NCBI GenBank assembly: GCA_015064885.1
Contig: SVRJ01000002.1
Span: 1 to 64,000, forward strand
DNA length: 64,000 nt
Source: Oscillospiraceae bacterium
GTDB taxonomy: Bacteria > Bacillota > Clostridia > Oscillospirales > CAG-272
Direction: 5' to 3'
The notes below the pieces were generated by a model. That model was given only the letters and a program-made list of their open reading frames with translations. It was not told where the DNA came from and ran no database searches. A program made the position numbers and the translations under genes. Positions within the stretch are counted from its first letter, which is position 1; the number at the start of each line of letters is the position of its first letter. Below are positions 10,672-13,528 of this stretch, one piece after another.

Positions 10672-10700
10672 TTGACATGGAACTGTTTTTATGTTATAAT
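10672..10700 (+). promoter_or_regulatory. Consensus sigma-A promoter
   Basis: TTGACA (10672-10677) and TATAAT (10695-10700) are 17 bases apart, upstream of the secreted two-repeat protein gene. Confidence 0.9.
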
Positions 10701-10731
10701 AAAGTCAAGAGCTGAAAGGAGGAATGAAAAG

Positions 10732-12285
10732 GTGAAGAGGCTTGTGTCTTTTTTGATAATATTTACGTTTATTTCGGCGATGCTTTCTCCTATTGTATCC
10801 GCTTCTGAAATTCTCACTAAAAGCGAGGCAATAAAGCTGTTTGAGATAGGTTACGGACGTAGCGATCTTCTCCTTCACGGAGAGATAAACGATCTTCCGT
10901 GGCTTTCCGACTCATACAGAAAAAAATATTTTATTTACGATCGGATGACGACGTATTCATATGATGAATATTACGGCACGTTCGACTTTAATGAATCATC
11001 CGACGGCAAGCCGTATCCGTACACGGTCAATTATTATCCGCACTATGCGGCTGTGATAGAAGATAATGGCGAATATGAAAAGTTCTCGTTCAGTACTGTG
11101 GACATGGATTTTATAGAAGGCTATATACTTGCATACTATACCGAGGATATGAAGGATATGCTCTTCACCGTAGAATATCGCCATTATGATTGGGATACTG
11201 AGGAGAAGGTGTACTGGGACGTTGAGGCTTTTCGGACGGATCCAAATACCGGTATGCTGTTAGTTAACAGTAACGTTGCGTATGAGCGGCAGTTTGACAG
11301 ATTTAGTTTAGGAGAAAAGCTTACTGTTTTAGGATTTACGTCAAATTCTTCAAATGCGACTATGACTTTACTCTGTAATTCCAACATAGGGATCGAAGGA
11401 CATACAAAAACGGTGGAAACGGTGACGTTTGAGAACACCAAGGACGGATGGCGTATATCCGGCGGAAGTCTTTTTGACGTGGCATATTATTATGAAGAGC
11501 CAAGCTACGGGTATGAACCCGGTGAACTTGAGCGGCTTACATATGATGCTGTTGGTAATTACACTATTTTAAAGCATGGATATCCGATTACATGGCTGAG
11601 TGACTTTGTTACCGAGAGCGGGAAAAAGGGAGTTTGGTTTCTTGGAAATATGATGGATTTTTCGGATATGTTTGCGCAAGATCAAGACGTTACAATAACG
11701 TTTACCCACTCGAGCAAGGGAAAAAAATATGATGAGCCGAAGATATATTACCGTGCTACTGTAGGGGAAGATCTGTTCTCAGAGGCTTTTGTCAAATCAC
11801 AGGATTATATAGACTACGTGCGCTCTGTATTTGTTTCCGAGCTCTGCGATCCGTGGTTTTACAGTGAAGACGGAGAACTTGAATATTTCAGGGACGAAAC
11901 GAGCAGCGGCGGAATTCTTGTGAGCGGTGAGTTTTACCAAAAGATCAGAGCCAAATTCCCCGCATATGAATTTTCTTTCTATAACGGTGTCCGTATGCTT
12001 TCTTCAAATAAGGCGCGTATGGAGGTCGTACTGTACAGCTATAGCTCTGAGGCGCGAAAACACGTACATTATACAACTACCATTGATGCCCGAAGGACGT
12101 CAGATGGCTGGCGTATTGTCGGAGGTGAATTCTTCGACGTTATGGAGGGAAAGAAGGCTCCAAAAGCTTACGAGCCTGTAAAGACGGGGGACGGCAGCGG
12201 AATTGAGGCAGCATATTTCTCCATGCTGGTACTGTTGTCTCTTTACGGTGCATTTCATTTCGGAAAAAGCAGAAGACAGGCTTAA
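10732..12285 (+). CDS. Secreted, membrane-anchored protein with two related domains
   Basis: The GTG at 10732 is chosen because AAGGAGG lies nine bases upstream and it gives an immediate signal peptide (MKRLVSFLIIFTFISAMLSPIVSA). The earlier in-frame start at 10672 lies inside the promoter. The 517-residue protein ends with one hydrophobic segment and a basic tail (about residues 492-517), so it is probably anchored by its C-terminus. Two segments match each other, ending DGWRISGGSLFDV (about residue 245) and DGWRIVGGEFFDV (about residue 472), showing an internally duplicated domain of unknown function. I do not recognise the family. Confidence 0.8.
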   Translation: MKRLVSFLIIFTFISAMLSPIVSASEILTKSEAIKLFEIGYGRSDLLLHGEINDLPWLSDSYRKKYFIYDRMTTYSYDEYYGTFDFNESSDGKPYPYTVNYYPHYAAVIEDNGEYEKFSFSTVDMDFIEGYILAYYTEDMKDMLFTVEYRHYDWDTEEKVYWDVEAFRTDPNTGMLLVNSNVAYERQFDRFSLGEKLTVLGFTSNSSNATMTLLCNSNIGIEGHTKTVETVTFENTKDGWRISGGSLFDVAYYYEEPSYGYEPGELERLTYDAVGNYTILKHGYPITWLSDFVTESGKKGVWFLGNMMDFSDMFAQDQDVTITFTHSSKGKKYDEPKIYYRATVGEDLFSEAFVKSQDYIDYVRSVFVSELCDPWFYSEDGELEYFRDETSSGGILVSGEFYQKIRAKFPAYEFSFYNGVRMLSSNKARMEVVLYSYSSEARKHVHYTTTIDARRTSDGWRIVGGEFFDVMEGKKAPKAYEPVKTGDGSGIEAAYFSMLVLLSLYGAFHFGKSRRQA

Positions 12286-12292
12286 ACCTAAG

Positions 12293-12330
12293 CAAAGGCT
12301 TTCCGCCAACGGTGGAAAGCCTTTGTGTTC
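12293..12330 (+). terminator. Intrinsic terminator
   Basis: CAAAGGCTTTCC pairs with GGAAAGCCTTTG, followed by TGTTC. The T-run is imperfect. Confidence 0.65.
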
Positions 12331-12383
12331 TTATTCATGCGAGGCTCCTTTTACGGGGCTTTTTATTTTGCCACGGAGGTGTT

Positions 12384-12522
12384 ATCAGACTGTGATGCAT
12401 TCCTGCCCGCCCCGCCGCCCCGAGTGCTCCGCACTCGGGAAAAACGGGCGCAGAGCGCCCGTTTGCGAAAGAAGAGGGCTTCTTTCGCCGGCGGGGCGGG
12501 CGAGAATGCATCACAGTCTGAT
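12384..12522. repeat. 139-bp cloverleaf palindrome
   Basis: Outer arms 12384-12417 and 12489-12522 are inverted repeats of 34 bases with one mismatch and one G-T pair. The interior consists almost entirely of three back-to-back hairpins: CCCGAGTGC/GCACTCGGG (12419-12439), AAACGGGCGC/GCGCCCGTTT (12442-12464) and GCGAAAGAAG/CTTCTTTCGC (12465-12488), with loops of 3-4 bases and only three unpaired linker bases. The result is a four-way junction on either strand. It lies between two convergent transcription units. It carries no credible gene. It may be a non-autonomous mobile palindrome or a structured RNA. Confidence 0.85.
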
Positions 12523-12535
12523 ATTGCCGCTGTAG

Positions 12536-12578
12536 TAAAAAAACATCCGCCCAAGGAAAGAAACGCACGGGCGGATGT
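12536..12578 (-). terminator. Terminator of the galU-to-dnaI operon
   Basis: ACATCCGCCC and GGGCGGATGT form a 10-bp stem, followed on the minus strand by TTTTTTT. It closes the ten-gene minus-strand operon. Confidence 0.9.
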
Positions 12579-12586
12579 TGAAGTAT

Positions 12587-13528
12587 TTATCTTTGCGCAA
12601 GCTTCTGACGGCGCACGTCCTCGCCCTTAAAAAGAAGAGGAGAGAAGTGACCGAGGATCCTGCTGGTTATTCTGCTGTCGTATTTTGCCTGAAGCTCGTT
12701 TGGAACGAGATTGGTGTTCATTATGGTAGGCTTGCCCTCGTTGAGACGTGTGTTGAGAAGATTGTAGAGGGCGGATACGGTGAACTGATTGGAAAGCTCG
12801 CTGCCGAGATCGTCGATTATGAGAAGATCGCAGTCAAAATATCTGTCGGTCAGATTCTCGTTTTCTGCACCGTGTGAGGAAAAACGCTTTCTCTCAAAAT
12901 CGTCAAGCATGTTTATAACAGTCGTGTATACCACGTCGTAGCCGCGTCCTATCACGGAAACCGCCACTGCGGTGGAAAGATGCGTCTTTCCGAGCCCGGT
13001 TCCGCCGATCAGAATAAAGTTTCTGTCGGATGAGTCAGAGAAGTTTTCTGCAAAGCCGCGCAGAACACCGAGATTCCTTTCTATAGCGTCTCTGTCGGTA
13101 CCTGCGTAGTATTCAAGCGAGAAGTTATCAAAGCGCTGTGTCTCGGCAAGCTTTCCGAGACCGCTCTCCTTGAGTGACTCGAGACGGATCTTTGCTTTTA
13201 TGCAGTTGCACATCCGGGTGCCCTTGTATCCGGTGTCGTTACACTCGGAACAGGAATATTTAGGACTCGTGTAATCTTCGGGATATCCGTTAGAGGTGAG
13301 AGCAAGAGCCCTCGCCTTTGTAAGCTCCTCTATTCGGTTGAGCTTTTCATATGCCTTGTCTCCCGCGCCTACAAGCGTCCTCGCCAGATAGAGCATTTCG
13401 CTGTCATATTTTTTGAGCTCGGGAATTTTCTCATATACCTCATAGCGCCGTTCGTCAGCCTCGCGCTGAGCCTTTCGGCGCCTTTCGGCATATTCTTCTT
13501 TTACTGCCTGATATATCTTAGGATCCAT
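12587..13528 (-). CDS. DnaC/DnaI-type helicase loader ATPase
   Basis: The 313-residue AAA+ protein has Walker A (GGTGLGKTHL, about residue 170), Walker B (LLIIDDLG) and a sensor region, as in the DnaI/DnaC/IstB group. Before the ATPase domain lies a Cys cluster (CSECNDTG...CNC, about residues 92-110), matching the zinc-binding N-terminal region of Gram-positive DnaI-like loaders. It should load the replicative helicase. It follows the DnaD-like gene by 12 bases, the usual helicase-loading pair in Firmicutes. It is the last gene of its operon. Confidence 0.9.
   Translation of the reverse strand: MDPKIYQAVKEEYAERRRKAQREADERRYEVYEKIPELKKYDSEMLYLARTLVGAGDKAYEKLNRIEELTKARALALTSNGYPEDYTSPKYSCSECNDTGYKGTRMCNCIKAKIRLESLKESGLGKLAETQRFDNFSLEYYAGTDRDAIERNLGVLRGFAENFSDSSDRNFILIGGTGLGKTHLSTAVAVSVIGRGYDVVYTTVINMLDDFERKRFSSHGAENENLTDRYFDCDLLIIDDLGSELSNQFTVSALYNLLNTRLNEGKPTIMNTNLVPNELQAKYDSRITSRILGHFSPLLFKGEDVRRQKLAQR

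Follow-up and report, generated by a model that had tools for sequence, protein, structure and literature searches.

Small dispersed palindromes are common, and in most of them the interior either keeps its sequence or is a single hairpin. Mitochondrial double-hairpin elements and GC clusters are likewise small mobile GC-rich hairpin units, but they are organellar and are not known to have a closing stem round three hairpins or bipartite inverted ends. The closest known system to the element described here is that of the REPINs, in which the inverted ends are highly conserved, the spacer is conserved in length and pairing ability with compensatory changes being common, and an alternative "clover" fold has been suggested (PMC3116915). 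Descriptions of prokaryotic MITEs give them a typically AT-rich composition and direct target repeats, duplications of the target site that may disappear as the elements age (PMC10969869). Our element works most like a REPIN, being a dispersed, non-autonomous palindrome whose inverted ends are conserved and whose spacer retains its length and pairing, yet it does not qualify as one. Its ends are different from those of REPINs, every copy has a four-way cloverleaf core of ~90 bp with three hairpins, no REP-associated tyrosine transposase (RAYT) was found, and copies were not found in the relatives sampled. We consider it probable that the feature belongs to a lineage-restricted, MITE/REPIN-like family of mobile DNA elements that are small and non-autonomous and have a cloverleaf core. 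The mobility of the family is inferred from its dispersal and its terminal inverted repeats.

The window, which is the whole stretch of 64,000 nucleotides that was analyzed, has its strongest inverted repeat at 12384–12522. The sequence-only reading had described this segment as a nearly fully paired cloverleaf of 139 bp, and folding confirmed it: the RNA minimum free energy was −116.9 kcal/mol, whereas shuffled sequences averaged −52.9 (z −16.8, 0/200 shuffles). Single-stranded DNA folding of 12372–12535 gave z values of −15.6 and −15.8, one for each strand. The outer stem, which had been read as 34 bp, is composed of 33 pairs and one mismatch: a helix of 19 bp, in which the 5ʹ arm at 12384–12402 pairs with the 3ʹ arm at 12504–12522, a C/A mismatch at 12403/12503, and a further 14 bp, the first pair of which is T-G. 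The latter segment is the GC-rich cloverleaf stem P, whose 5ʹ arm GCCCGCCCCGCCG (12404–12417), largely common in sequence to the copies, pairs with the 3ʹ arm at 12489–12502. It closes three hairpins of 9, 10, and 10 bp, exactly as had been claimed: hairpin 1 at 12419–12439 with the loop TCC, which covaries in other copies; hairpin 2 at 12442–12464 with the loop AGA, which also covaries; and hairpin 3 at 12465–12488 with the loop AGGG, which covaries in every pair (arms and hairpins given on the + strand). The count of three unpaired linker bases was also exact, these being C12418 and AA at 12440–12441.

The ends at 12384 and 12522 had been drawn too short. Searching with the conserved end pattern found ends on both sides, so that the whole element, which has no assigned strand, spans 12372–12534 and is 163 bp from tip to tip. 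The left terminal repeat comprises an outer box of the type YACAGNG, here CACGGAG (12372–12378, + strand), and an inner box ATCAGACTGTG (12384–12394, + strand), which is at the same time the outermost part of the stem; both were placed by an alignment of 19 ends. On the right, where the end pattern and the same alignment agree, the inner box ATCAGACTGTG lies at 12512–12522 and the outer box TACAGCG at 12528–12534, both on the − strand. A structure-only scan found no other cloverleaf in the window, and the earlier statement that no second copy lies there was correct; at least ten are found elsewhere in the genome.

The genome assembly to which the window belongs comprises 2.29 Mb in 77 contigs and is 91.5% complete. 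BLAST of the element against it gave short matches, all with the ends TCAGACTGTG...CACAGTCTGA. Pattern searches, a covariance model (R1) derived from five copies, and a structure-only scanner agree on at least 11 copies on 10 contigs, located at C3:12372 (the window copy), C3:75036, C6:14067, C18:3634, C21:3738, C33:6019, C35:6698, C47:22213, C50:25595, C61:16885, and C32:34726. When three mismatches were allowed, the end pattern matched 11 times in this genome, while the reversed control matched 0 times. A chance palindrome is ruled out by the z of −16.8 and by the 11 copies. Aligning the 19 ends gave a bipartite terminal inverted repeat with the consensus YACAGNG, 5–6 variable bases, and RTCAGACTGTG. 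Among the copies with both tips clear, three are 163–165 bp from tip to tip (the window copy and those on C47 and C32), with matching arms between the ends; five are 197–205 bp and carry an asymmetric linker of ~40 bp on one side only; and the C61 copy is intermediate, at 175 bp. The right ends of the C21 and C50 copies are degenerate and undelimited. In 11 of 11 copies, exactly three hairpins are closed by a GC-rich stem with the sequence GCCCGCCCCGCCG or one like it; this core has a G+C content of 67–79%, and the z values for the junction cores are −5 to −11.

The copies on C6 (L075, 4068–4272) and C35 (L079, 4199–4402) match at 191 of 205 positions in unrelated flanks and differ in the outer 14 bp of one tip, which reads CGTCCCCT in one and TAATGCCG in the other before CTGTG, as if a tip had been exchanged or belonged to the target. 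A pattern aimed at the outer box YACAGNG as a pre-existing palindromic target (ACAGNG...CNCTGT) found 73 short inverted pairs in this genome versus 14 in the reversed control, about fivefold, but proved too loose, and many of the pairs may be coding.

In size and dispersal, with 11 short, non-coding, intergenic copies of 163–205 bp in one genome, in the terminal inverted repeats common to the copies (19 ends), and in the very stable fold, the family resembles prokaryotic MITEs such as QMITE2, NEMIS/Correia, ERIC, RUP, and SPRITE. Unlike MITEs, it has a core of high G+C content, no target repeats, and no known parent IS, and its core is conserved by structure rather than by sequence.

This conservation by structure was evident when the hairpins were compared. 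Their sequences are almost wholly different between copies, and pairing is retained: 400 of 408 arm positions are Watson–Crick within the copy. Across the 11 copies, the arms were 96%–100% Watson–Crick within a copy, compared to 36%–40% when arms were swapped between copies. As MAFFT alone misaligns the hairpins, the 11-copy alignment was made by helix; such placement leans towards pairing, but each copy folds alike on its own, and the cross-copy control uses the same placement. In a gapless alignment of five copies, 97.4% of cells were paired, compared to 76.4% after shuffling and 45%–49% after sliding, and both sides had changed in 24 of 40 pairs; no shuffle reached the observed values. The sequence-only reading had named several dispersed copies with compensatory changes as support for a mobile or functional structure, and 11 copies with massive covariation were found.

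The type of pairing bears on what is conserved. In RNA helices under selection, G-U pairs are tolerated, and intermediates with such pairs are normally numerous. Here, G-T occurred once among the 408 arm cells and was no commoner than A-C (two), and folding without G-U gave 418 pairs with three interior mismatches, namely one G-T, one A-C, and one other. Owing to this near absence of G-T pairs, the constraint appears to be one of DNA complementarity, not of RNA structure. The ends are conserved in sequence and the middle only as a four-way cloverleaf, which points to the folded DNA itself as the important property.

The same observations weigh on the possibility that the element is a structured RNA, such as a 3ʹ-UTR stabilizer, an RNase III target, or an attenuator, which would be transcribed from the genes in front, spread as a repeat, and kept for its RNA structure. 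The multi-hairpin fold is indeed very stable, and each of the 11 copies follows the 3ʹ end of one or more genes at a distance of ~25–140 bp. In addition to the scarcity of G-U pairs, however, both strands fold equally, and most copies are recovered by the covariance model on both of them. The model could orient five of the tandem copies; of these, about two are sense and three antisense to the upstream gene, showing no clear strand bias. No Rfam family matches the element; at gathering score, only a tRNA was found in the window, and the best sub-threshold match reached 24 bits versus 97. The window copy lies behind the terminator-like hairpins of the upstream gene, and therefore may hardly be transcribed. 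Because G-T pairs are few, the strands fold equally, and the orientation to genes is mixed, we regard a structured RNA as unlikely. It was one of two readings put forward from the sequence; the other, a mobile non-autonomous palindrome, is favored by the dispersed copies, the terminal inverted repeats, and the covariation.

The main rival explanation for the covariation is maintenance of the palindrome by repair. Quasi-palindrome mutation by template-switch repair makes perfect Watson–Crick arms, and the arms of a decaying repeat could have stayed complementary in this way during replication, with no selection for structure. Such repair would give perfect arms in fast-changing sequence, as observed here, and could keep them perfect without function, which counts against the mobile reading. 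However, the mismatched N5 tips and the linkers left unpaired in the long copies should then have been fixed as well. At the two tips, the N5 parts are not kept paired and differ between the ends in most copies, and the linkers are not kept paired either, indicating that complementarity is no general property of the locus. Moreover, repair alone would not explain why stem P hardly varies and why the junction has three arms in 11 of 11 copies. We therefore give this explanation a low probability, similar to that of the structured RNA.

The window copy sits between convergent genes, encoding a 537-aa protein that is predicted to be secreted and has no Pfam match (10672–12285, + strand) and a DnaC/IstB-type ATPase (12587–13528, − strand). 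Five copies have such a convergent setting and six a tandem one, and divergent promoters were seen at none; neighbors were taken from simple ORF calls, and the left neighbor of the C6 copy is uncertain. The convergent setting in 5 of 11 copies would fit a bidirectional transcription terminator or an insulator between genes. Against this, the stem is not followed by a T-run, and both convergent genes of the window have terminators of their own outside the element: an intrinsic-terminator-like hairpin at 12292–12326 (+ strand) for the upstream gene and, as read directly in the sequence, one at about 12546–12575 for the gene on the − strand. A terminator or insulator is thus very unlikely.

Beyond its own genome, the family was not found. 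BLAST of 39 mixed relatives gave no copies, and the end pattern, run on 295 genomes of the family with our own included, was positive in our genome alone. The covariance model gave the same result in 198 family and 396 order genomes, again including our own, with strict prefilters by which weak matches are lost. No copies were found in the phages, plasmids, and viral contigs searched, nor did the end pattern find any in contigs of 84,980 species. Thirteen pattern matches were obtained in genome_contigs and viral_contigs; the seven examined were attributed to chance because their flanks were unrelated and they had no cloverleaf, and the others were in Nostoc, Yoonia, Microbacterium, and Catenulispora. 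Stem P also matched in viral contigs, its motif being plain GC-rich sequence. The de novo structure scanner, which recovers 11 of 11 own copies, found no comparable cloverleaf in 1.78 Mb sampled from relatives, where about 8.6 would be expected at the density of our genome, and gave only irregular, mostly coding-type matches. Because some collections may lack our genome and its near neighbors, and our genome was the only one of its genus among those searched, other members of the genus may also carry the family.

Two other repeats were noted in relatives of the same taxonomic family. One is a cluster of alternating CATGAATTG/CAATTCATG palindromic units (L176, 75–205) that belongs to an unrelated repeat family. 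The other is a 137-bp inverted repeat, AGTAGTTTGC...GCAAACTACT, around a terminator-like hairpin (L172, 19141–19277), possibly another small palindromic element.

As to how the elements may have moved, the assembly, at 91.5% completeness, contained no element with the family ends around a transposase gene and no other end pairs. The RAYT/IS200-type Y1 transposase (Y1_Tnp, PF01797) had 0 matches in the assembly, whereas 5 of 14 control genomes were positive. A REPIN proper, moved by a RAYT, would follow the same logic, its inverted ends being conserved and its spacer retained only in length and pairing ability (PMC3116915). This identity is already contradicted, unless the 8% of the genome that is missing contains a RAYT: there is no Y1_Tnp match, the REPIN foot GTAG or CGTC beside the palindrome is absent from the 19 aligned ends, and there are 11 copies only. 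We consider it extremely improbable. Recognition of a folded single strand, as in IS200/IS605 elements, would be a possible mechanism; those elements differ in having subterminal hairpins rather than inverted tips, and their Y1 transposase was not found. The mobile reading also has to contend with the small number of copies and with the fact that neither a transposase, nor an empty site, nor a target-site duplication was found, the mean longest flank match for the latter being 2.67 compared to 2.61 expected (p 0.53).

For a mobile family, we infer a working model for the mobilizing enzyme and the role of the cloverleaf. A recombinase supplied in trans would bind and cut at the bipartite ends, and the core would be retained because the DNA of the element is folded at some stage, either as a single strand on the lagging-strand template or as an extruded cruciform. 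In that state, the cloverleaf might compact the interior and join the two ends (synapsis) for excision and reinsertion, and insertions would persist behind genes, where harm is least. It is possible, though we put it forward only tentatively, that the family represents a new class of bacterial mobile DNA, in which a four-way cloverleaf is selected at the DNA level (Watson–Crick pairs only, with the sequence free) as substrate or scaffold for a putative recombinase acting on the bipartite YACAGNG-N5-RTCAGACTGTG ends. A small search of open-access full texts returned no bacterial element with a cloverleaf core, which is not proof of novelty.

In the eleven diverged copies, compensatory changes preserve the four-way junction, and G-T intermediates are almost absent. 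The family is therefore a natural test of whether selection on such repeats acts on DNA folding and not on RNA folding. If DNA folding is selected, it would offer a tractable case for studying how folded DNA is recognized during the movement of elements that carry no genes.
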